This document shows positions 4,719-32,953 of a stretch of 64,000 nt of DNA, in pieces. This DNA comes from Bacilli bacterium (GTDB lineage: Bacteria; Bacillota_I; Bacilli_A; Izemoplasmatales; Hujiaoplasmataceae). Every line of letters starts with the position of its first letter. The stretch's first letter is position 1. Location of the stretch: NCBI GenBank assembly GCA_018399755.1, contig JAGYOE010000001.1:53457-117456 (forward strand). The letters are read 5' to 3'. The position numbers and the translations under genes were made by a program. The notes under the pieces are model-generated. The model did not search any database. It saw only the letters and a program-made list of their open reading frames with translations, and was not told where the DNA came from.

Positions 4719-4771
4719 TAGAGAACGAAATGCAGCCATCTTAGATGGCTTTTTTTGTCGGTTTAATTGAT
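4671..4771 (+). repeat. tRNA-Phe 3' half + terminator, copy A (within functional tRNA)
   Basis: Shares a 53-nt exact match (cgccctggaccacc...gatggcttttttt, 4704-4756) with 7275-7327. Confidence 0.9.
4735..4756 (+). terminator. Rho-independent terminator of the tRNA cluster
   Basis: gccatc ttag? gatggc hairpin region followed by T7. Confidence 0.8.
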
Positions 4772-5066
4772 ATAGTGATTTATGGCTTTACCATAAAGAA
4801 GCGATTATAGATTTTTGTTATTATATATTGTATTTTTAAATTGGAAACAAATCTTTACTATTGATTTTGTTTTTATTCTTATTTACACATTGTTTTTACT
4901 ATTTTGAAGGTTTTATTTTATAATATAAGTTAAGTATCAGTTAAATAACTTGTAAGGCCTTTAAAATAGTTTATTTTATGTAAATTAAAGTAAACCCATA
5001 GTTAACTATTAACAGTATTTACACATACATCAATAAATATATAATACAATTATCGGAGGTGTATTG

Positions 5067-6296
5067 ATGTCTCAAGTTATAGATAATGTAAAAGTAGGTA
5101 ATCATATTAAAACTTTATTAAAGAAAAAAAGATGACTCAGAGTGAGCTCGCTGAAAATTATTAATATCAAAATCAGCTGTTTCACAAAATTTAAGTGGAA
5201 GAAGTACATTTGACATTGAGAATTTATTAAAAATCGCAAAAATTATTTGATATGTCATTAGAAGAATTAATTGAGGAGAAATCAAAATCAACAATATATA
5301 TCAGATTATGAAAAGATTGTTGATAAGGGTTTAAAAGGTATTCAGCAAGTTGATGCTAAGAATTTAAGAATTGCTGAGCCAGACTTTACGGGAAAGTACT
5401 AGTTGATTATATCATCGAGCATGAAAAAATGGGATATGCTTGAATAATTACATAATCGCGATGTGATTTTCACACATGATTATTTTAGACGAGCAAAGGA
5501 TGTTTTATTAAAAGTAATTCTTGTTTTGTTGGAACACGACATTAAGGATGTCGTAAAGTATTTCATTCATTATAAAAATATAAATGGTGATTTACTTATT
5601 GAGGATGAAGAAAAAGGTTATTTGATATGGAAACTATTGATAAAAATAATAATAAAGATGTTGTTAAGCTACTTTATTCAAACCAAAGTAACTTATTCAA
5701 AAAATATTAAATGTTTTTGATTATAAACAAAAATGACTTAATTAGGTAAATCTGTTCTAATCAAGTCTATTGGTGAATATAAACTATCAAATGTATTTTC
5801 TATTTTAAACTATTGTAGATGATGATTTTTCTGAAGTGTTTAATGTCTTTTTACATCATCAATATTATAAAGGTATTAAATTCTAGCTGAGCATTATAAT
5901 GAATCTACAATATCCTATTATAAAAAGATGAGCATTGGTGTTCAAGCATGTATTCTCAAATTAGTAGAAGATCATCAGTTCGACTTGGAGATTGAGTTTT
6001 TTAAAAATCGTTTATACACAAAACTTAACAGAAGTTCTCAGATTATCAATAGAAACTGGTCAAAATAAAATTGTTTCAATATATTATTGCGAATTATAAA
6101 GACGATGTTATATTTAAGAAAATCGGTGAATATTGTATTGAATATAATAACTTAGAGTTGTTTGATTCAATATGTGAATATTTAGTCGATGATGATTTAG
6201 ATTATTTACTATCGTACAATAAAGTCAAAGGATATTGGTTTCATGGTTGCTTTAGTGAATTTAGGTGCAAGATTTAGAGAAAATATTACAATCTAG
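5067..6296 (+). pseudogene. XRE-family HTH regulator with long alpha-helical C-terminal region, frameshifted in this sequence
   Basis: RBS ggaggt; conceptual MSQVIDNVKVGNHIKTLLKKK/MTQSELAE/ISKSAVSQNLSGRSTFDIENLLKIAK/LFDMSLEELIEEK; ORFs 5463-5720 and 6071-6277 are later segments. Confidence 0.7.
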
Positions 6297-6356
6297 ATAC
6301 ATACAATAAAAATCAATATAATATTAGAATACTTTATTAAAATGGAGGAAAAATAG

Positions 6357-7026
6357 ATGGATTTATAAAAGAAAATTTTGAAGTAATTATGATCCTTTGT
6401 GTAATTTTTCTAGCTGTATTAATGTTTATAGTGATAGGCTTAAATCGTTATTTAGTTTCTTATTATTTAACAAAGAAGTTTAATATAGATGCGAATTATG
6501 AAGTTGATGCTAAAACGGGGACAAAAACGCTTTTACTCTTAAAATCTACAATAACAATATTAATGATATTATAGCGGGGTTTGGTTTTTGTTTATAAAAA
6601 TCATAATATAGATTTTTATAATAAATTCTTAGAACTAAACAATTTTTCCAATAAATCATAAACTAGTGATTCCATCAAGGGATTTATAAATATGTTCATC
6701 ACTGTTGATGATTTAAAAGCTATTATCTACGAAATTAATAAGGGTAATTATAAAGTATCTTCAATTAAAGCTTATGTTACAGATTCATTAGGTATAACGA
6801 CAATGAATAAAACAAAACGATAAGAAAATTATTATATAAAGATTTAAAGAATGATTATTTGGAGGATAAGCAAAAGGAGAAGAATGTTCAGAAACTCGAG
6901 AGATTAGAAAGAAAAAATAAAGAAAAACAACGTTTAGAAAATAGATTAAAAAGAAAAGAAAAAATTAATAAGATGAAAATGTCATTTAAAAAGTTCATTA
7001 ATTTTTTCCGAAGAAAAAGAAATTAA
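6357..7026 (+). pseudogene. Single-TM protein with charged coiled-coil basic C-terminus, frameshifted
   Basis: TM segment in ORF 6389-6574; conceptual C-terminus KNDYLEDKQKEKNVQKLERLERKNKEKQRLENRLKRKEKINKMKMSFKKF. Confidence 0.55.
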
Positions 7027-7243
7027 TACTCCTTAAACATTCAAATAGATAAATATTCCTAGAAAAAAATACAAGAATTAGCAATTATAATTATTACTGT
7101 ATTATTTAATGAACAGAGAAAAGGTAAAGAAATCCTTTAGTTCGATTTATTGTTTTATATAAAATTAAGCATCTTATTTATATCATATAGATAGGATTGG
7201 TAATTATTTTTTTACTTAAACTGTATTCTCTAATTGCATTTTT

Positions 7244-7345
7244 GGACTGAAAGCATGTATTGGCGGTTCGATTTCGCCCTGGACCACCATAGAGAACGAA
7301 ATGCAGCCATCTTAGATGGCTTTTTTTTTTTGTTGGTTTAATCGA
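7244..7345 (+). repeat. tRNA-Phe 3' half + terminator, copy B
   Basis: ggactgaaagcatgtattggcggttcgatttcgccctggaccaccatagagaacgaaatgcagccatcttagatggctttt. Confidence 0.9.
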
Positions 7346-7812
7346 GTTGTATTATTTGGTTAAATATTTATTTTCCTTTGTCTTATGACATTACTAATTA
7401 TTTTATAAATATATTAATTCAAAGTTACCTAATGTAATATCTTGTTTATGCGTAGAGATTTTACCCATGGTACTTAATATTGGTATTTTAGATCCATTGC
7501 CGAAATAAGAGCTGAACACTGGCAGTTGCCATATCATTGGTAAGATGCATTGATCATCATTGAACAAATTTGACGACAGTGTTATATGCAGCTCACGAAA
7601 TATGAGAAAATATCTGGTAAAACATATGGTGTTTGCTTCATCTGGTTACCGGAAAACTATTATCATTATAAATATGCTTTTGATGAGAATTATATGTCAA
7701 TGTTCTAGAGGAAAGATCATTTTCATATTTTGATGATGACTGTACGGCTGCCAAGAAGCAAGAGAAATCAAAAATATAGTTAGTCTTGTTGATACAATAA
7801 TGATGTGGATGT

Positions 7813-8210
7813 ATGAATATAATTTTGGAGTCATCAACATATGAGGAACTAACATCTTTGATGACCAATGATATAAAATCAATTATCTCAATGATACATC
7901 AACATTTAGAAAAAGAAGGAGAACTTGTCGGTTTTGCTGATATGTATTCAGTGATTTATGAAGCCTTATTAATTGGAAAAGAACATGGGAAAATTCAAGC
8001 ATATGGACAGTCATTGACATTATGGCTTCCATAGATACATATTTAAAATATGCATCAAAATTTAAACAGCATCTTCTTAACATATATGGTAATGATAAGT
8101 ACAATCAAGTCATTGACTCAATGAATGATTCTCCTTATAAAAACACACATTTAAAATTCCGATTGAATTCAGACGAAGAAGCTATAATGCCTTTTTCAAG
8201 TTTTTTATAG
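7813..8210 (+). pseudogene. Uncharacterised alpha-helical protein, frameshifted
   Basis: ORFs 7813-8034 and 8022-8210 read as one protein after one frameshift. Confidence 0.5.
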
Positions 8211-8905
8211 ACAAATAGAATACTATATAATAGAAGTCTATCCTTCTTCCTTCAATGATGAGTATAATTTTTGGTCAATAATATTGGAAGTCATTACTTA
8301 ATAAAAATCTTTACTTAAACTGGACTCTAAATTAACTGACAAATAGATAGGTTAATGAATTATGTAGTAGGTATATTCAGTCAAGTTTTTGTGTCTATAT
8401 ATATATATTTTTAATTAGGATACGAGAGGTGCTGTTATTTTAGAACAAATACTGTGCATTTCGAGGCTATACTGTTGATGCATTTTTGCAAGGTAAAAGG
8501 ATTGATATAGATTAAAGTGCTATGGTTTAAAGTTAACAGTTAAAAATGAAAGGAAACATAAAAATGAAAAAAACGTGGTTACAATCGTCATTTCTTTTTA
8601 TGTATTCACTTTAATTTTTATAATCTTTTTTTCCTCGAGAAAGTATAGATTTAGGATTACAGAGCAATCACGTTTATCTATGTGTTGGTTCTGTTGATTT
8701 CTTCCATTGTCTTTCATCCCAAGATAAGATTTATTTTAGACAAAAGCATTTTTTAAAGTATATTGACTGGCTATTAAAATTTATTGTTTTATTGTTGCAA
8801 TAGTTTACTTTAACAGATTTTCCACAGCTAGCAATGGCTCTAGTTTACACGTTTTCAGTATTGTGTGAAATTCAGTTAAGTATTTTTTGAACAAACATAT
8901 AGCTT

Positions 8906-9307
8906 TTGATATCTAGAACCGAAATAACTAACCATATTGAAGATTATAAAGATAAATTAAATAAAATTTCTAAAAAGGGAATTATATTCCCGCTAACTCT
9001 TATGTATGTTTTGGTATTGATGATTATTATGAACTTATTATTTTACTATAACGATATTATTTTAGGAGTGCTTTTTATAAGTTTTTGTTTGATAAATATA
9101 TTTGTTTAAGACTAAATAGAAGTCAAAAACTAATTGGTTTTCAAAATTTATCATTGTTAGCAGGCATCTTATTAGCACAAATTCTTAATAGATTCTTTGG
9201 AGAGACTCTCTATTTAAATGTAAAAAGGAATTATTGAACTAATAGGAATTGTTATTATAGTTGTTTCATTGATACCGTTAAACAATGAAGTGAAAAAAAG
9301 TCCTTAA
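8906..9307 (+). pseudogene. Small membrane protein, frameshifted
   Basis: Hydrophobic segments in ORF 8906-9109 continue in another frame (GFQNLSLLAGILLAQILNRFFG...IELIGIVIIVVSLIPL). Confidence 0.5.
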
Positions 9308-9490
9308 AATTTAAAAAAAGAAACCATGTAATAGTGTTTTTTAGAATACATAACTCCAGAAATATTTTTTGTCTTTGCAAATGAGAAAGTATTTATTATT
9401 CAAATTGTTCATAATGAAACTAGCGAAATAAGAAGAACATTTCAAAGGATATTCAGCTCAACAGAGAAATGAATTAGTTACTTCTTCTTA

Positions 9491-9524
9491 TTGATTGCAT
9501 TTTTGGATTGAAAATCTATTATTC
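9491..9524 (+). repeat. Partial tRNA-Phe anticodon-arm fragment, copy C
   Basis: ttgattgcatttttggattgaaaatctattattc matches the left edge of copy B (aattgcatttttggactgaaa). Confidence 0.6.
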
Positions 9525-9580
9525 AAAATAATTTGTATGTATCATATTAAACATGATTATTTGTACAAGGAGGAAACTAT

Positions 9581-9745
9581 ATGAAGATGAAACATGTTGA
9601 TATCCTTATTACTTTTATAGGATTAGCAGGATTAATAACAATTGGGTTAATGAGCATTACAGACCACAAAGCTGACAGATATTTTTCAGTTGTTCCGGTT
9701 CAAATATTTTTCGCATCACTTTTCATTGCTGGGTATAAGTTATAA
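9581..9745 (+). CDS. 54-aa hydrophobic protein
   Basis: Strong RBS aaggaggaaactatATG; MKMKHVDILITFIGLAGLITIGLMSITDHKADRYFSVVPVQIFFASLFIAGYKL; one of the few intact ORFs here. Confidence 0.65.
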   Translation: MKMKHVDILITFIGLAGLITIGLMSITDHKADRYFSVVPVQIFFASLFIAGYKL

Positions 9746-9806
9746 AAGTAATTAATATTTTCAAATAACTTTAAATTAATCTTTATTAATTAATCGATGC
9801 ATGAAA

Positions 9807-9895
9807 CGACTGGAAACTAAGTTTTAGTGGTCGGTCACACCCTGACCAATTATAGAGATCGAAATACAGCCATCTTAAGATGGCTTTTTGTTGTT
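9807..9895 (+). repeat. Diverged tRNA-Phe 3' half + terminator, copy D
   Basis: cgactggaaactaagttttagtggtcggtcacaccctgaccaattatagagatcgaaatacagccatcttaagatggcttttt. Confidence 0.8.
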
Positions 9896-10229
9896 GGCTC
9901 TATAAAATTTTGTCCATGGTGAATATATGGTTATTATTATATTTAAGAATATATATTTACTATAATTTTTAGTATCTTATTGATTTTACTTAAGAAATGA
10001 TTAATAATATTTTGTAAGATTATCTAAGATATGACGATATAATGAAAAAAACATATATATAGGATTTTTTTCATTTTTCATTTTTTACTATTTGACGTCA
10101 TTTATAAAGTTGAAAACAATAACCATTACTGATTATATGAGCAGTAATAGATATAAGTTTTTTTCTTACATTGCTATTTAGTATAGAACTATTATATTGA
10201 AAAAATGTGGAAAAGGGAATAAAAGAGAA

Positions 10230-10890
10230 TAACTAGGGATTTCAGTTCAGTTGTTATTGACTTTATATGTTCTTAGCATAATTATTGCAGTTCTTTCACA
10301 TTTATTTTTTAAAAGTATAATTGCATAGATAAGATAATTAGATAAGATTGGCAAATAATAGATTTTCGCTAAAGGTAATCAAGTAAATTTAATAAAAGCA
10401 GGTATGTCCAATGAATATATTATTTGCGTTTGCTTTCATTATTTTTTAGATTTAGCGAGATGATGGGAAATATAAATGGAATAATATATAGTTGGTGATA
10501 AAAATGAAGAAATGAATTTATATTATAATGGCAAAGGTAACAAATATTAAAAATATCGATAATTATAGTTATATAAATATCCATGTAGTCGAGAAATACT
10601 ATATTTTTATCTAAATTTTGGTGGTCAAGATGTCCTTGTTTTTGATATGATATTAGGGTTTCGTTGGGAGCACTTATACAGAAAACAAATTAGAACCAAT
10701 ACTTAGCTTTGATATTGAATACAAAGACATTGACCCCGAAAATTTCTCAATTGAGGTAAAATCAGGAAAACATTAAGATTTTTGGTGTTACGAATATCAA
10801 TAAATTTATAATAAAATAAATGAAATTCATCCTCTTGCCAAAAAAGAGTTGATAGCAAAAGAAGCTAGTTATTATGATGGCTATTAGTAT
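10230..10890 (+). pseudogene. Hypothetical membrane-anchored protein, multiply frameshifted
   Basis: Conceptual TM segment then ENKLEPILSFDIEYKDIDPENFSIEVKSGKH ... LAKKELIAKEASYYDGY; boundaries approximate. Confidence 0.35.
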
Positions 10891-11025
10891 ATTAACAATT
10901 ATTTTTTCTTGTTATCTTATTGATAAGTTTATCTAACTACTTAACTTTTTAGTATGTCATCTTGCAGATATTATCGTTGTAATTTCTTATTGTGAGCCTT
11001 AGAAAATTTTCTTTGGCTCACATAA

Positions 11026-11880
11026 ATGAATTGGTATTGTATGGTAAGTAGAATCAAACAAATATCAATGCAAATTACTTTTATTATTGGTAACATTACG
11101 ACATACGCAATTAGTTATTTTTATAGCGGAAACAATGATGTTCTATGGATTTTGTGTATGCTAACTACTATAATATTTATGTTTTATCTATTGGTAATGC
11201 AGAAAATGTTAATCGTCAAATATTTGGTGAAAATAGAATTAAATATTTCATTATTTATTTGTTGATACTGTTATTTTATTATTATTACTGTTGTTAGGGT
11301 TTTATATCTCTGTATCAGAAGATTTTTTTACAACTACTCTTATTGATTAGTTATGTTTTCGGATGCCTTCTATTACTTTTAAAAGATTATTATTTTTATT
11401 CGAAAACAATATTCATGCAAAGAGAAAGAAATATCATTTAAAAAGCATGATTTAAGTTAACATTGTTGATATCAACGAAAATACTGATGCGAGGATGAGA
11501 AAAGAAAAATATTATTACTGCGAGCGCAGTTTCAACAATTATATTAGGATCTTATAATCAATTTTATTGCCAGGTCAGATTTAACAAAGATGTAACTATA
11601 ATACACGAACTGTTAGTTATCATCTTTGTAATTACGGCAATAGTATCTTCAATACTGTAAAATTATGTAAACTAAGTAAAGCCTCAAGTTATCATTTTTG
11701 GGAAACAGGTATGTTTGTTTCAAGTATGATCGTTTATGATATATTTTCAATTATATGTACTTCTGGGTGACTTTTAACATCCCACTAATGATTGTTTCAA
11801 TATTAATAATAATACCTTTTGTTAAAAACCAAGTGAAATTCATGATTTAATGGAAGTTCATTTTAGTGATAAAGAATAGC
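11026..11880 (+). pseudogene. Polytopic membrane protein, multiply frameshifted
   Basis: ORF 11026-11265 hydrophobic; further hydrophobic stretches in shifted frames; boundaries approximate. Confidence 0.4.
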
Positions 11881-12261
11881 GTTTATTAACAAAGAAATAA
11901 TAGTAAAAGTATTTGACAAAACGAAATGAAATTTTTTAAAAATAATTTTAATTGGTGTTTTTATGTTGGATAGTATTGATTTGTGGTTTGGTATTAGCTG
12001 GTTCATATAATTTTATATTCCTTTTGTAGGTTTTTTTTATTTTTAATTGCAATTATACCGTATTTATATAAAGTCATAATAAATACAAACAATAGTTCAT
12101 TTAAAACTGGTAAGAACACTTATTAATAATATTTTTCAATAAGAAGACTTTATTAAAAGAAAAATCAACTTCATATGTAAATATACAACATTCCTTACGA
12201 GAAGAGTTATACTCCGTAATGCCAAGATAGGAGTTCATATCCGAAGTTAATTGAATTTCTT

Positions 12262-12343
12262 CGACTAAAATTCATGTTTTAGTGGTCGGTCACGCCCTAG
12301 ACCTCCAAAGAGATTGAAATGCAGCCATCTTAGGATGGCTTTT
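12262..12343 (+). repeat. Diverged tRNA-Phe 3' half + terminator, copy E
   Basis: cgactaaaattcatgttttagtggtcggtcacgccctagacctccaaagagattgaaatgcagccatcttaggatggctttt. Confidence 0.8.
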
Positions 12344-12461
12344 AATGATTTGTAACAAAAACAGGAAAAGCATATAAATATGCAGAACCTGTTCTTATTT
12401 TCTTCTTATTTAGACTGTTTCTTACAGTCCTTTTTTTAATTATTTACAAATTCAATACAGT

Positions 12462-13112
12462 TCATATTGACTGCCTTGGTTTTTGTCTCCTTTGTTGATG
12501 AGATTCATTTTGATTCCTGTTTTGGAACATTCTTCTGAATTGATTTTTTAACTTGATTGACCATGTCTTCACCGACATATTGGTATCGATCACTAGAGAA
12601 AGCGAATTAAAGTTGTTCAGAAGCTTGTAATAAGTATTCGAAAACTTCTCTAACATCATCAGGGATATTTTCTTTGTGCTAAAAATTTTTGATACATAGA
12701 GATGTTCATTTCTTCAGCTTCAACTCCGGTTGCCATAGCACTGGTTATTGATTCTGGTATAACGACTCAACTCACTTGCGTTATTTTCAGGAACATCTAT
12801 ACCGTATGCCTCGAAGAGTGGTAATAATAAATTGATGTGTGTTTGTTCAGCTTGAACGATGTTAACAAATGGTTTTATTGCACCAAACTCATTGATAATG
12901 GCTTCATATTCTGCTTTGCTAAAAATTCATCATTAATTGCATAAATCAGCATTTCTTCTACAGAATAATCAATGTCCTCAGATACAAGTGCTAGCTGATT
13001 CACATTGGTATTCAGAATAAACGCTTTTGCTATTACTAGATAAGGATACGTAAGACCGGAGAATTAATACCAATGTTACAACCGATAAAGTTTTTACTAG
13101 TTTCTTTTTCAT
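12462..13112 (-). pseudogene. DUF2202 ferritin-like domain protein with signal peptide, frameshifted
   Basis: Reverse complement reads MKKKLVKTLSVVTLVL..., EDIDYSVEEMLIYAINDE / AEYEAIINEFGAIKPFVNIVQAEQTHINLLLPLFEAYGIDVPEN / DDVREVFEYLLQASEQL. Confidence 0.7.
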
Positions 13113-13387
13113 AATAATTCCCTCCGTTTCTGTATAAGATATACGGATAGATAGCGGAATTTATTGGAACTTTTAAAAATATTTAAATTTAGTTATTTTA
13201 ATCCCAAAGCAATATTAAGTAACATCATCTCAATAAATTCAATAATAGCAACTATTGTGTGTGATTTATTTAGTTTAACTTGTATATATTGGAAAGAATA
13301 ATCATATTGAATTTAGTAGATGTTATTATAATTAGTATTTTTTAGTGTATAATTATAAACATATGCAAGGATTTAGGAGGTAGATTT

Positions 13388-13903
13388 TTGATAAGGAGAA
13401 TTATTTATTTAACACCTAAAGATGAATTGCCTCTAGATAGGAATATCTATATAGACAAGCATCAAGGCTATAATTAAAAAAGGCCAGCTATTTTTAATGG
13501 TTTACCTAATGTGAATGGAGATTATAAATTTCCTGGTGGTGGAATCGAAAAGACGAGTAAAGTAGAAGCTTTAAGAAGAGAGGTTTTGGAAGAAGTTGGC
13601 GGAATAGTAACAAAGGTGGAACCGCAATATGCTTTAATAACAACTTATAATAAAGAATCTTTAATTAATGAATTTGATGTATTTCATATGGATTCTCATT
13701 ACTTTTTTGTGAGATTGAAGAAAACTAATGAAACAAGCTTTAAGTCAATATGAAGTTGAATTGTCATTTGTTCCAAAGTGGTGACGATTGAAGGAGCTAT
13801 TCAAGTCAATGAGTTAGTCCTTAAACGCGGTAATCCACCGAGATGGACATTTCGCGAAACAACCATGTTAAAAATCCTTAGAAAAATGAGCGATAAGTTT
13901 TAG
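13388..13903 (+). pseudogene. NUDIX hydrolase, frameshifted
   Basis: Nudix box GGGIEKTSKVEALRREVLEEVGG in ORF 13511-13753; upstream LIRRIIYLTPKDELPLDRNIYIDKHQGY after TTG start. Confidence 0.75.
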
Positions 13904-14001
13904 TGATAAAAGTGAGTGACATATACGCCCTTTAGTTTTAGATAAAAGATGTGTTTAATATATATGTAGTAAGAATATGTAAAAGAATAAAAGGTGGTTT
14001 T

Positions 14002-15456
14002 ATGAAAAAATTATTTTTATGTCAATGACTTTAATGTTAATTTTTGTATTAATTGGTTGTGATGCTTTTTCAAACACACATACAGTTAATTTTGTTTTGG
14101 ATAATGAATTAGAAGACGTTGCTGTCAAAGTTGAGGATGGAAAAACAATCCAACCAATTATACTACCTGAAGAAAGTAATCATTTAATTTTGGGATGGTA
14201 CACATCTAGTGACTTTGAAACAAAATTTGATTTTAATGAACCCATCAATGAAGATATTGATCTTTATGTAAAATACAGTCATTTTGAATTTGGTAAAGAA
14301 AACTTTATCACTTATCAAGAAAATAATTGATTATGGTTCATGTTGCTCAGAGAAATTATTGAAGCTCAATATGATGATGCTTCTATATTTAGATTTGGTT
14401 ATGCCTTAGTGGTCAAGGATGATCAATTATTATTCATTGACGAACTAGGAAATGAATTTGACTTGGATGCAAATGATACACGGATGTTCCTTTATAGAGA
14501 AACAATAAATTTTACGCGTGATGGGAAGGTTTTAATCTTTACTGATGAAGGTGCGAAGTTATTGAATACAGAGGGAAAGAAGTCTTATTTAGAAGAGCGA
14601 TGTTGATGAAGAGAGGATATTATATTCATCATATTTTGAAGATGGTTTAATTCCATTCGAGCAAATATAAGATCAGGTTCTAATACGGATGAATGTGTTT
14701 ATCTTGATGAAAATGGAGATGTTGTTCTTGATGATAATGTACTAAAAGTACTCATCATTTAGTGATGGCTTGGCCGCTGTAAGAATAACAAGTGGGGAGC
14801 CTTTACAGATTCTTATTATTATGGCTATAGTTTTATTAATCCTTCAGGGAGATATTTTATTGAATACAGGTTTAACATCTATTTACAGAATGTTTGATGG
14901 CATTCAACCAGTATTACTTAAAGATGGTTATGCAATTGGTAAATATCATCTTATTTAGGGTCAGATGAGCCAATGAGATATGTAGTGATAGATGAAGAAG
15001 GCCAAATCATACTAGAATTTGAACCTTCTTTTGACAATGAGACTAGTCATACTGAAATTCCGATAGATGTTAGTAATGGCTATGTTTTAACCAGAAATGA
15101 TGATTACTATTATGCTATTTATGATTTTGAATGGAAACTTAATCTATGATTATATGATGTACAGAAATATTCCTTATTCGAAATCTTGGAAGACGGCGAT
15201 TTCTGACGAACCCAGATGAATTTCCGGCCCAACGATCTATCTAATACGGCGCAGTCGACGTTAAACCAGGTGATGTTATTATTGATTCGAATTATTGATT
15301 CACAGCGCGGATGAATGGTGGTTATGCAGCAGTAGAAGACAATGGGGTTATATGGTATTATCGATACTTTCTCGAGATATTATATAAGTTGATATAGAAT
15401 ATGAAAATATGTATTCTGTGACTAGAACTTATATTGAAAAAGAGGATGTAAGATAA
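14002..15456 (+). pseudogene. Lipoprotein with InlB-B-repeat-like domain and WG-like repeats, frameshifted
   Basis: Lipobox VLIGC; HTVNFVLDNELEDVAVKVEDGKTI...GWYTSSDFETKFDFNEPINEDIDLYVKY; repeats such as FSDGLAAVR, FGYALVVKDDQLLFIDELG. Confidence 0.6.
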
Positions 15457-15609
15457 AAAATAGTTTTTAAATATATTATATATTTTCAACATAGGGATGT
15501 AAAATTTTTGTAAATTCAAAACGCTTTTCTCATCATTTAAAAATAAATATGATATGATAAATTTAACTTGGGTAATTATTTTTATAATTATAAACGAAAA
15601 GGAGAAATG

Positions 15610-16066
15610 ATGTTAAAAAGTATTGTTTGTATGTGTTCATAATAGTGCTAGGAGTCAAATGGGAGAAGCATTCTTAAATAAATTAGGCAAGGGCTACTTT
15701 TAGCAGAAAGTGCTGGTATTGAAAAAGGAGAACTAAATCCATACGTTGTAAAAGTTGATGAAAGAAGTTGGTTATGATATTAGTCATAATGAAACCAATA
15801 AAGTATTTGACTTCTATAAAGAAGGAAGAACTTATACTCAAGGTTCATGAAAAGCGGTGGTGATGAGATGAAACTTATCACAGGCGGTCCAATATTGTGA
15901 GGGCGTTGAATGATATTTATTGGAATATTGAAGATCCATCTAGTTTTAAAGGTTCTGAAGAAGAAATATTAATAAAGACGAGACAAATTAGAGATTTGAT
16001 TCAAACAAAAGTAGAAGATTTTATTGATAAGAATATAGAATACGCTAAAATTAAAAATAGTTTAAA
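15610..16066 (+). pseudogene. ArsC/LMW tyrosine phosphatase-type arsenate reductase, frameshifted
   Basis: Conceptual SIVFVCVHNSARSQMGEAFLNKLGKGYFLAESAGIEKGELNPYVVKVMKEVGYDISHNETNKVFDFYKEG ... WNIEDPSSFKGSEEEILIKTRQIRDLIQTKVEDFI. Confidence 0.75.
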
Positions 16067-16094
16067 AAAGCATAACCTCGTGAGGTTATGCTTT
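16067..16094 (+). terminator. Rho-independent terminator / strong palindrome
   Basis: aaagcataacctc gt gaggttatgcttt. Confidence 0.75.
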
Positions 16095-16137
16095 ATTCGT
16101 CTTAATGCTTAGCGAGATATATTCAAGATTTTCTATA

Positions 16138-16882
16138 TTACTCTATTTTATTTTTAATAAATTCAGGAGATTTACCATCTTCTTCAGTTAAACAGGGTTA
16201 TAGGCGGCAAGACCATATCTAATGGTTTGAATTGATTAACTGTTGAATTTAGAGCCATAACCTTGTAGGGTCAAGGTATAAATGAAATATATCATCCATT
16301 AGTAGAATACGCCAAGGTTGTTTGTTTGAAGCACTCGGACCAGATTGAACAGTTTGTAAGTTGCGAGAATATTTGTGGTTATCTTCCAAAGGAGTGAGTT
16401 GCTTATCTTTAAAAAATAGTTCACTAAAAGCTTTTCTTATCAGCGCGAGATAGGCCACGTATTACTTTTTCTTAGTGAACGATTGGTAGGATATCCGACT
16501 GGTGATATGGCTGCAATGATTTCATCGTCTTTGACATCAATGTCAAAATCTTTTCTATTAAAAGTACCGCCTAGCCAAACAGTGCCTAAATGAGCCTCAG
16601 TTAATTTAAGAATCACTTCTTCAAATAAGAAACCAAAGTCGACATGCCTTCTGGTGTTTTTAACAAACACCTAATAAATTTAAAAGAGATTGCGAACCAT
16701 AGGTTCCGATTTTGTTTTCTTTATTTTTGTTATCAACAAAGAAAATTTCACTTGATGTTTAAAAGGACCACTTTTCTCCTCCACAGACTTTAAAATCTTC
16801 TTTATAAGTAATTTGTCGCTGTTGGATAAGGGTTTGTTTTCATAACTTCTTATAGATACTCTTTTTCAATCGCTTTATACAT
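16138..16882 (-). pseudogene. Nitroreductase family protein, frameshifted
   Basis: LTEAHLGTVWLGGTFNRKDF...DDEIIAAISPVGYPT and SASNKQPWRILLMDDIFHLYLD in two minus ORFs. Confidence 0.75.
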
Positions 16883-17167
16883 AATTTTCACCTCAATATT
16901 TCTATTGTTATTAGGTCATTATATTATAATAATCATTTTTTTAAAAGTCAGCATAAGATGTATACGGTTACATAAAACTTAAATAATTTTTCTATTAAAT
17001 ATAGAAATTAAATGAATATCGTGCTATATTTAAATTAATAGCATTCAAAGCAATATTCTTTGTATTTTTAAGTTCAATGAAAAGAAATAGTAACTGGTCT
17101 AAAATTAATTGATGCCGACTATGAATGGTGTGATGCCTTCAAGATAAAAAAAAAAGAGGTGTAATAA

Positions 17168-17530
17168 ATGAAAAAAAAGGATGATTGGGGCTTTAACAAA
17201 AGAGAATCAATAGACAGAGATAAATATGATCAAAGGACTTTTCTTAATAAGTATATAAAAAGATATAAGTCTTATACATCGATGATGAGATGGCTTTTAC
17301 CTATGGTTGTGATTGTGAATTTAGTACTCGTTGTTATTATTTACTTTACTAATTATATGACCAATGGGAAACATCAGATTTTGGTGATTTCTATTTTCTG
17401 GTCCATCGCTACTATAATTTGGATTTTTTAGTATCGATTGCAAACTTTTCTTTTATTTTAAGTTTATTGATGAAAAATTGGGGACTTGGAAAAAGAATTA
17501 AATGAGATTGAAGACACTGAAAATGAATAA
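17168..17530 (+). pseudogene. Hypothetical two-TM protein, frameshifted near 17430
   Basis: ORF 17168-17431 plus continuation in another frame. Confidence 0.45.
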
Positions 17531-17542
17531 TTGATTAAAAAT

Positions 17543-17569
17543 AAATCATCTTTAGGATGATTTTTTTTT
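17543..17569 (+). terminator. Rho-independent terminator
   Basis: aaatcatctttaggatgattttttttt. Confidence 0.75.
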
Positions 17570-30888: not shown

Positions 30889-30920
30889 TAACCAGGAATT
30901 AAATTTCCTGGTTTATTTTT
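30889..30920. terminator. Rho-independent terminator between convergent genes
   Basis: aaccaggaattaaatttcctggtt + T-rich. Confidence 0.75.
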
Positions 30921-31896
30921 TCGTTTTATATTCTTCTTTATTAAATATTTTAAATAAAGAGCCTTTTTTATTTTTAGCTTGATACATTGCGAAATCTGCA
31001 TAATCTATTAAGAGATGAATGTCAGTTGTATCTTTATTGTAAATTGCTATTCCAAAAGATAAATCAAGTGGAAGAGTTACATCTTCAATTTCAATATTAT
31101 ATATAACTGTATCTTTAAAAGTTTCAACTAAACTTTTTATATTAGACTTAGAGATATCTTTAATTCCAGGAATAAATATACCAAATTCATCTCCAGCTAT
31201 ACGCATTTTTACTGCATCTTCAAATGGTAATTTTTTTATTCTTTTAGCAAATTCAATCAAGTATTTATCGCCTAGATTATGGCCATAAGTATCGTTGATT
31301 AATTTGAAGTCATCAATATCAATAAACCAAAATAATCCATAATCTTCTTTATGCTTTTTAATGACTAGATTGATTTCATCGCGATATTGATATCTGCTTA
31401 CTAAATCTGTTAATGGATCAGAAACTAACCGATCATTTAAGATTGAATTAAGACGATTGAGTTTATTGTTTAGTTTTTCTGTTTCACGAGTTTTGTTTAT
31501 TATTTGATTATTTAATTTTTGAATACTGTTGTAGATAAATTGATTATCGCCTTTATCGAAATTTTTGTTATTTACACTACAGTGATGTGATAAAACCGAC
31601 AAAATATTTATTATTAAAGTTTTTTGTTCTTTACCTAAGTCAATATCGGTCGCATAAAAAAGATAATGGCTTCCTAAAGGTTGTAAAATAATTTTGAAGC
31701 TTTGTTGGTTGATATTGACATTAATAAATGAGTGTGTTTTCTTTTTTGAATGTAACAGTTTCTTAACTCTTTCGCTATCATCAGCGCTTAAAATAGTATA
31801 AATACTTCTAGGAATTTCTTTATCTAAATTGCAATTTGCAAAATAAGTGTAATCTATCACTCCTAAATCATTTACTCTAAATAATAAATCAGCCAT
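30913..31896 (-). CDS. Diguanylate cyclase (AGDEF variant) with N-terminal PAS-like sensor and coiled coil
   Basis: DPLTDLVSRYQYRDE, FWFIDIDDFKLINDTYGHNLGDKYL, RIAGDEFGIF; ATG at 31896 overlaps the upstream gene's TGA. Confidence 0.9.
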   Translation of the reverse strand: MADLLFRVNDLGVIDYTYFANCNLDKEIPRSIYTILSADDSERVKKLLHSKKKTHSFINVNINQQSFKIILQPLGSHYLFYATDIDLGKEQKTLIINILSVLSHHCSVNNKNFDKGDNQFIYNSIQKLNNQIINKTRETEKLNNKLNRLNSILNDRLVSDPLTDLVSRYQYRDEINLVIKKHKEDYGLFWFIDIDDFKLINDTYGHNLGDKYLIEFAKRIKKLPFEDAVKMRIAGDEFGIFIPGIKDISKSNIKSLVETFKDTVIYNIEIEDVTLPLDLSFGIAIYNKDTTDIHLLIDYADFAMYQAKNKKGSLFKIFNKEEYKTKK

Positions 31897-32953
31897 GGTT
31901 AAACACCTCTTTAGACCAATTAAGCAATTCTTTAGCATCATTAGTTGATATATCCACATGCCATTTTTTCCAAACTTGATTTGTCATTTTAAAAGCCCGG
32001 CCACCAACAGCTATTTTAGGTGGATTATCTAGTTTTTGTAAGTCTTCAATTATTTCTTTACATTCTGTTAAGTGTTGTGGCATTGTGACAGAGAGAATAA
32101 TTAAATTTGGTTTTGATTTTTTAACTTTATTGATAATTACTTTTTTAGGAATACCAGCACCTAAATATGTACTATCCCAACCATGATACTCAAATAAATC
32201 AGAAATCATTCTTGCGCCCATTTCATGTAATTCACTACCAACACTACAAGCAACTAAGGTTAAACCGTTTCTATCTGTAGAAAATATTTTAGTATAAAAC
32301 TGAGATAAAACAGTTTGAGTAATTGAAGTCATATAGTGTTCTTGGTCAACAGAAATAATATTTTTTTGCCATCTTTCACCAATTTCTACCATAACTTCTT
32401 GAAGAATATCTACATAGATATCTTCTAAAGGAATATTGGTTTTCTCAATTTCTATAATATATTCAATAGCTTTAGACGTTTTTTCTTTCATAAGATAATC
32501 AAGATATGTTTCACGAATATGAGCATATTTACCTTTATTAAAGTTTGATGGCTTGTCTTTAATTTCATAGTTTTTTGTTAGTTCTATAGCATTTTTTAGA
32601 TAATTATGAATGGTTTTATATTCAAAGGTATCTAAAACTTTTTTTAATTCTTTATCTAATAAATTGTAATGAATAACCATGTGCTCTTTTATTCGTTCTT
32701 TAGTTAAATCTGGCATTAGATTTACCATTAATTCATATAACCATTTAGCATATTCTAGAAATAAATTGTCTTCTTCAAGATTATAACTCACTTCTAAAAA
32801 ACTAAGATTATAAAGAATATCTTCATACATCTTTTTTTTGCGATAGTCATCATATTCTTCTTCGAGTTTCTTATCTTCAATAAAGTGTTGTTTATACACA
32901 TTCTCAGCTACTTTATTAAAAGCTGTAGAAAGAGTGTTATTTAATAGGCTCAT
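31889..32953 (-). CDS. Cobalamin-binding (CarH-like cap + B12-binding) sensor protein
   Basis: ERWQKNIISVDQEHYMTSI (Wx9EH); VGSELHEMGARMISDLFEYHGWDSTYLGAGIP; IILSVTMPQHL. Confidence 0.88.
   Translation of the reverse strand: MSLLNNTLSTAFNKVAENVYKQHFIEDKKLEEEYDDYRKKKMYEDILYNLSFLEVSYNLEEDNLFLEYAKWLYELMVNLMPDLTKERIKEHMVIHYNLLDKELKKVLDTFEYKTIHNYLKNAIELTKNYEIKDKPSNFNKGKYAHIRETYLDYLMKEKTSKAIEYIIEIEKTNIPLEDIYVDILQEVMVEIGERWQKNIISVDQEHYMTSITQTVLSQFYTKIFSTDRNGLTLVACSVGSELHEMGARMISDLFEYHGWDSTYLGAGIPKKVIINKVKKSKPNLIILSVTMPQHLTECKEIIEDLQKLDNPPKIAVGGRAFKMTNQVWKKWHVDISTNDAKELLNWSKEVFNHG

Follow-up and report, generated by a model that had tools for sequence, protein, structure and literature searches.

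Photoglobins reportedly form a family of non-heme globins linked to B12-binding and signalling domains, with gene neighbourhoods that are reported to have been surveyed (Schneider et al. 2022, cited in PMC10979010 and PMC10151467). The closest described systems are the photocobilins, which are grouped by the N- or C-terminal position of their AdoCbl domain (PMC10979010). In one of them, AbDPcob from Acidimicrobiaceae (PDB 8J2Y), light raises the turnover of the cyclase more than 10-fold and AdoCbl binding alone lowers its activity in comparison with the apo form, and a separate photocobilin protein acts on a cyclase in trans (PMC10979010). The window analysed here, a stretch of 64,000 nucleotides from an Izemoplasma-like anaerobe, contains two overlapping minus-strand genes that encode a B12 sensor and its candidate target enzyme.

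Gene layout and the sensor protein

The two-gene unit is composed of the following elements:

31889–32953, minus strand: sensor gene, 354 aa, with photoglobin, B12-binding cap and B12-binding Rossmann domain (open reading frame, Pfam, AlphaFold, PDB sequence matches)
30913–31896, minus strand: cyclase gene, 327 aa from ATG 31896 (open reading frame, AlphaFold)
31889–31896, minus strand: overlap of sensor stop and cyclase start, 8 nt, ATGGCTGA (sequence)
30890–30913, no single strand: bidirectional intrinsic-terminator-like hairpin closing the unit (terminator scan, 2 found against 0.5 expected)

The cyclase frame is open over 30913–31959 of the minus strand, and ATG 31896, with GAGGTG just before it, is most likely its start. 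The overlap of the two frames, proposed in the initial annotation, was confirmed at 8 nt, and the identical overlap occurs in a same-genus relative. The number of matches in the promoter scan was at chance level and no promoter is claimed. The neighbours of the unit, named by eye, are unrelated to it: it is flanked by an alanine-dehydrogenase-like gene and, at its opposite end, by a divergent esterase-like gene. The esterase/helicase flank is conserved in the same-genus genome G003 and the opposite flank is not. Viral carriage was rejected, as no relative was present among viral contigs and no PHROG match was obtained. Elsewhere in the window, the region 4719–17555, some 13 kb that follow a tRNA cluster, contains one single ORF of at least 100 aa (103 aa, 14019–14330) and no Rfam match; this part looks partly coding, either a frameshift-rich assembly or a decaying region.

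The sensor protein has the following features, all on the minus strand:

32564–32926, minus strand: photoglobin (phycobilisome-type globin), residues ~10–130 (83-homologue profile against PDB; PF00502 Phycobilisome)
32819–32821, minus strand: D45, aligned with SasPcob Asp270 and with the Asp of the phycobiliprotein CxRD motif; D in 77 of 83 homologues
32741–32743, minus strand: W71, aligned with SasPcob Trp296, which contacts biliverdin ring D and the corrin; W in 83 of 83
32303–32515, minus strand: B12-binding_2 four-helix cap, residues 147–217, with G192xxW195 and E205H206 (Pfam; residues in 83 of 83)
32336–32371, minus strand: W-x9-EH (W195...E205H206), the adenosyl-contacting signature (sequence; 83 of 83)
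31976–32257, minus strand: B12-binding Rossmann domain, residues 233–326 (Pfam, E 1.5e-15)
32216–32233, minus strand: ELHEMG (residues 241–246), axial-His motif; H243, E244 and G246 in 83 of 83

The B12 module is strongly conserved. Trp195, Glu205, His206, His243, Gly192 and Gly265 are invariant in all 83 sensor homologues and Pro269 of the GxxxP element is kept in 79 of them; with the W, E, H and H invariant throughout, the signature is not due to chance. The signature of light-responsive cobalamin-binding domains given by SignatureFinder comprises GxxW, EH, GxxH and GxxxP and was validated for light response (PMC11796333). Its GxxW, EH and GxxxP elements are present in the sensor, and GxxH is matched loosely, since the corresponding GSELH is one residue longer and position 240 is occupied by Ser in 33 and by Gly in 29 of the 83 homologues. 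The W-x(9/10)-EH and E/DxH motifs in a CarH-type B12 module, by which photocobilins are recognised, are both found. The best PDB sequence matches of the sensor are the photocobilins 8j2w, 8j2x and 8j2y (E 1e-18 to 4e-18; 2e-34 to 1e-26 with a profile of 16 sensor sequences), and CarH is matched at E of only ~8e-4. In a Foldseek search with the AlphaFold model (mean pLDDT 91.7, pTM 0.87) the best match of the whole sensor was 8j2y, with the alignment limited to the B12 part (~210 columns), as is expected for a reversed order of the domains.

The initial annotation had left the first ~180 residues as an unassigned helical region, a description that has to be replaced for residues ~10–130. In the photocobilin search a second stretch of all three proteins aligned out of order, their C-terminal globin falling on the N-terminus of the sensor, and a profile was therefore built from the N-terminal ~130 residues of the 83 homologues. 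This profile matches allophycocyanin with E 1.4e-7, the three photocobilin globins with 5e-7 to 1.4e-6 and dozens of further phycobiliproteins. PF00502 was matched individually by 29 of the 83 homologues (best E 1.7e-11); the window protein alone lies below the match level of this family. The identity of the globin, the phycobilisome-like five-helix domain that a photocobilin carries in the same polypeptide, rests on these profile matches together with the helices of the AlphaFold model, not on superposition. The putative bilin pocket is lined by Asp45 and Trp71, the former also aligned with the Asp of the allophycocyanin CLRD motif. In SasPcob Asp270 (chain index 264, the offset of 6 being taken from Trp296 at index 290) makes the key contact with biliverdin, at a position where the weak binder AbPcob has His, and Trp296 touches ring D of biliverdin and the corrin (PMC10979010). 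The equivalent of Asp45 is missing in six of the 83 homologues (L068, L069, L070, L075, L017 and L101), four of which belong, judged by name, to gut-type Bacillota lineages; that of Trp71 is never missing.

The CarH identity was rejected: the Pfam scan gave no MerR helix-turn-helix, the globin being located there, and NCBIfam TransRegCarH scored 42 bits against a cut-off of 400 bits. Since the N-terminal domain is a photoglobin, the sensor is, by its sequence, a photocobilin with reversed domain order and not a CarH. The Wx9EH signature, the axial-His-type ELHEMG motif and the lack of a MerR domain had all been noted correctly from the sequence alone; the choice of CarH as the nearest kind did not hold, since photocobilins are closer by both sequence and structure matches to the PDB.

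The cyclase and its pairing with the sensor

The downstream protein consists of a receiver module and a catalytic domain:

31642–31896, minus strand: PAS-like N-terminal domain, residues 1–85 (order of secondary structure on the AlphaFold model; no Pfam match)
31423–31632, minus strand: receiver coiled coil, residues 89–158, with LNN-x-hNK/Q-R-E core (model helix 117–158; N129, R137 and L146 invariant)
30964–31422, minus strand: GGDEF domain, residues 159–311 (Pfam PF00990, E 4.9e-33)
31183–31197, minus strand: AGDEF active-site motif, residues 234–238 (sequence)

The AlphaFold model (pLDDT 92.7) places the PAS-like β/α domain, the coil and the GGDEF domain one after another, in agreement, together with the Pfam match, with the layout proposed initially, and Foldseek returned PAS/coil-GGDEF proteins. 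All metal- and GTP-binding residues are present (Asp193, Asn201, Asp202, GD, GDEF and Lys308), and the catalytic positions are complete in the 39 GGDEF-bearing partners of the sensor family, with a single Asn in place of Asp at position 202. The RxxD inhibitory site is absent, as had been stated, with FEDA found at that position. The AGDEF motif is likewise real, but it is no peculiarity of this protein: its first residue is Ala in 20, Gly in 11 and Ser in 8 of the 39 partners, with GDEF in all of them. Cyclases with AGDEF can be active, the precedent being VCA0965, which makes c-di-GMP with the same motif (PMC3974145). No PilZ effector, a possible target of c-di-GMP, was found in the nine genomes searched. 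The own assembly, which is 80% complete, has ten GGDEF matches and no EAL match; the same-genus genomes have 2–8 EAL matches.

The sensor and the cyclase form a specific cognate pair. A search of 61 related genomes gave 16 full-length Wx9EH homologues, including that of the window, and in all 16 cases the next gene downstream in the same orientation is a GGDEF gene, which mostly overlaps the sensor gene or lies within a few bases of it. None of the 14 B12-binding homologues without Wx9EH has such a downstream gene. A profile of the N-terminal part of the cyclase (PAS-like domain and coil) matches exactly the 16 sensor-bearing genomes, once in each and adjacent to the sensor, as well as one fragment in genome G004, while the number of GGDEF matches per genome varies from 1 to 25 across the 61 genomes. 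The co-occurrence of sensor and receiver corresponds to p ~8e-14 in Fisher's exact test, calculated by hand and ignoring phylogeny.

The G004 fragment belongs to a same-genus genome without the sensor, in which the cognate cyclase is a stub of 105 aa ending before the active site (L117:3041–3358, minus strand). Such a stub is expected if the cyclase is useless without its sensor.

For the wider family, genome contigs were scanned with selection on the axial-His motif of the sensor, so that there is no bias towards the partner. This returned 80 additional loci, which are spread over about 14 phyla and include Izemoplasma-type MAGs. The lineages comprise Bacillota, Fusobacteriota, Synergistota, Bacteroidota, Chloroflexota, Acidobacteriota, Thermodesulfobacteriota, Pseudomonadota, Spirochaetota, Balneolota, the methanogen Methanolobus and others. 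At 74 of the 80 loci the stop codon of the sensor is adjoined by a partner that matches the cyclase profile; the partners at another four loci carry the coil signature only. Conservation of the gene pair had been set beforehand as a refuting test in the initial annotation; the pair was found in all 16 sensor-bearing relatives within the taxonomic order and at these 74 distant loci, so that the test was passed.

The outputs of the partners differ: GGDEF in 34, histidine kinase in 28, GGDEF-EAL in 6 and untyped in 10, several of the latter on truncated contigs (Pfam domain calls were made for ten example partners). On a quick sensor tree with long branches, the 72 typed members show no fewer than 4 changes of output. 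Asn129, Arg137 and Leu146 of the coil are invariant in 56 partners, cyclases and kinases alike, and at L064, L066, L074 and L111 the coil is retained although the PAS-like domain has been lost and the output replaced. Because the coil stays constant across different outputs, we infer that it is the place where the signal of the sensor is received. At L111, from the methanogen Methanolobus vulcani, the sensor is accompanied by a kinase-like partner that keeps just the coil, so the system occurs in Archaea too.

Cofactor supply and mode of switching

The own genome encodes a PduO-type cobalamin adenosyltransferase next to the lysine 5,6-aminomutase β subunit, as well as the D-ornithine aminomutase OraE; with this enzyme and these AdoCbl-dependent proteins encoded, AdoCbl should be available in the host. 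A second B12-binding family, without Wx9EH and with CIW[KR]EH and EEYHEIG motifs, is also present in this genome (C75, L004:1426–2061, minus strand). Its gene overlaps a LolCE/MacB-like ABC permease gene (L004:254–1429, minus strand) by 4 nt, an arrangement found at most of 14 related loci (L023–L036); a B12-gated exporter operon is possible.

Bilin-dependent systems need the oxygen-requiring heme oxygenase (PMC10151467). For a photocobilin such a supply in the host is context and not strictly part of the definition. Heme oxygenase (PF01126) was found neither in the 61 related genomes, 16 of them with the sensor, nor in 39 other sensor-carrying genomes; the same search was positive in three control genomes. 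Some of these genomes are incomplete MAGs, yet incompleteness does not explain the absence in 100 genomes. No HutW/ChuW scored above the cut-off in 30 genomes; matches below it were obtained in every genome, including all 14 controls, and were taken as HemW/HemN-like radical-SAM proteins. HugZ-type DUF2470 was detected in 1 of 55 genomes. The search for a bilin source covered these three kinds of enzyme. Conservation of the predicted bilin-type pocket thus extends to genomes in which no bilin source was recognised.

The model of switching builds on what is established here, namely which domains are present, which residues are conserved and that the pairing is cognate. That the sensor would bind AdoCbl, respond to light, act in the direction given below and contact the cyclase is taken from crystallised relatives. 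The two genes probably, though by no means certainly, constitute a split photocobilin–diguanylate cyclase switch gated by AdoCbl and green light. The sensor would hold AdoCbl between the helical cap and the Rossmann domain in the base-off/His-on form via His243, with the adenosyl group gripped by Trp195, Glu205 and His206 at the dimer interface; the N-terminal photoglobin would cover the edge of the corrin and offer a bilin-type pocket (Asp45, Trp71). By analogy with AbDPcob, dark restraint and release by light through the coil are proposed: in the dark the AdoCbl-bound sensor dimer would restrain the cyclase via the PAS-like domain and coiled coil, and green light would cleave the Co–C bond, release the adenosyl group and alter the dimer, so that the freed coil aligns the GGDEF domains and c-di-GMP rises. 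The split c-di-GMP switch of the initial annotation is thus supported in part, as to signature, translational coupling and conservation of the pair; it had missed the photoglobin and the exchange of outputs.

The main rival of the light-switch model supposes that the sensor reads AdoCbl occupancy, that is, coenzyme supply or damage by oxygen or redox chemistry, and that the empty or hydroxocobalamin-bound form frees the cyclase. Homologues with intact W, EH and H occur in gut bacteria (e.g. L060, L061 and L068). Clostridium citroniae, C. asparagiforme and Blautia parvula are gut species, and their homologues keep every adenosyl contact; such members, whose hosts live in the dark, speak against light as a universal input. 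The coenzyme status also matters to a host that uses OraE and lysine 5,6-aminomutase, and the lower activity of the AbDPcob cyclase with AdoCbl than in the apo form (PMC10979010) is what occupancy sensing would give. Nevertheless, it was for light response that this signature was validated (PMC11796333), record titles point to lake and soda-lake type samples as the origin of the nearest relatives, and an added photoglobin with bilin-pocket residues is hard to explain in a pure ligand sensor, so occupancy sensing is regarded as rather unlikely, if still appreciable. Slightly less likely again is a stronger version of the light-switch model, overlapping with it, in which the sensor is a full dual-chromophore photocobilin, with biliverdin or some other scavenged bilin bound as well and a response to red light. 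The match of Asp45 and Trp71 to the SasPcob residues speaks for it, as does the retention of Asp in the window protein where the poor binder AbPcob has His; the near-complete lack of bilin-source enzymes described above and the absence of a cysteine for covalent attachment speak against it. It is possible, with doubt somewhat prevailing, that in this large anaerobe-centred branch of split photocobilins the globin works without bilins made by heme oxygenase: it might take up a different linear tetrapyrrole or serve as a protein lid over the corrin. If true, the role of the globin in B12 sensing would be independent of oxygen-dependent bilin synthesis and possibly older.

Two further readings concern the partnership itself. 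PAS-like domains often bind ligands, and the genes might be co-transcribed with no direct coupling, the cyclase obeying some ligand bound by its PAS-like domain, with the B12 protein acting elsewhere. This is improbable in view of the restriction of the receiver module to sensor-bearing genomes (bar the G004 remnant), the survival of the coil at loci with a replaced output and no PAS-like domain any more (L064, L066, L074, L111), and the mere truncated cyclase left in sensor-less G004. It is far more improbable that the upstream protein is a methyltransferase-type corrinoid protein standing beside the cyclase by chance: E-x-H-x-x-G is shared with such proteins and NCBIfam MtgC/MtbC are matched weakly, far under the cut-off, but the neighbourhood has no methyltransferase partner gene, the sensor carries Wx9EH and a photoglobin, and the pairing is conserved over about 14 phyla.

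Comparison with known systems

The cyclase resembles VCA0965 in its AGDEF active site; VCA0965 differs in having an RxxD site and an unrelated sensor (PMC3974145). With CarH/LitR (PDB 5C8A etc.) the sensor shares the cap and Rossmann fold, Wx9EH and the axial His. Unlike CarH/LitR, it has no MerR DNA-binding domain, carries a photoglobin instead, keeps HxxG and is not a transcription factor. In the sensor family the glycine of HxxG, the classic corrinoid motif, never varies; the photocobilin sequences aligned with the sensor lack it (EWHALP, DWHSLS). Photoglobins carry a CxQD motif (PMC10151467), of which the sensor lacks the Cys and has only the Asp.

Photocobilins, both orders of their domains and a photocobilin–cyclase fusion are already known, so that the reversed order itself is not new. 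A pair of separate genes for sensor and receiver, strictly cognate and with exchanged outputs, was not found described in the literature searched, nor was its spread in heme-oxygenase-free anaerobes or its presence in Izemoplasma-like bacteria; for all of these priority is uncertain beside the neighbourhood survey of the photoglobin family. The occurrence of one sensor type with a cyclase, a cyclase–phosphodiesterase or a histidine kinase helps to map signalling from the sensor to the coiled coil, and the parts may be of use in green/red optogenetics. A phycobilisome-related globin with conserved pocket residues in heme-oxygenase-free genomes, one of them a methanogen, poses a testable question.

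SasPcob (PDB 8J2W/8J2X) is like the present sensor in its B12 signature, in the Asp270/Trp296 equivalents and in being a separate protein. It can regulate a diguanylate cyclase in trans in vitro and has no known cognate cyclase, and its domain order is the reverse of that found here. The present locus offers a candidate two-protein B12 photoswitch with a natural cognate cyclase. AbDPcob is like this pair in that a B12 photoreceptor domain and a photoglobin control a GGDEF cyclase, a control that is putative here (PMC10979010). AbDPcob is a single fused polypeptide in which the photoglobin follows the B12 domain and the bilin Asp is replaced by His, whereas the present locus consists of two overlapping genes, with an N-terminal photoglobin, the Asp retained and a PAS-like and coiled-coil receiver on the cyclase.
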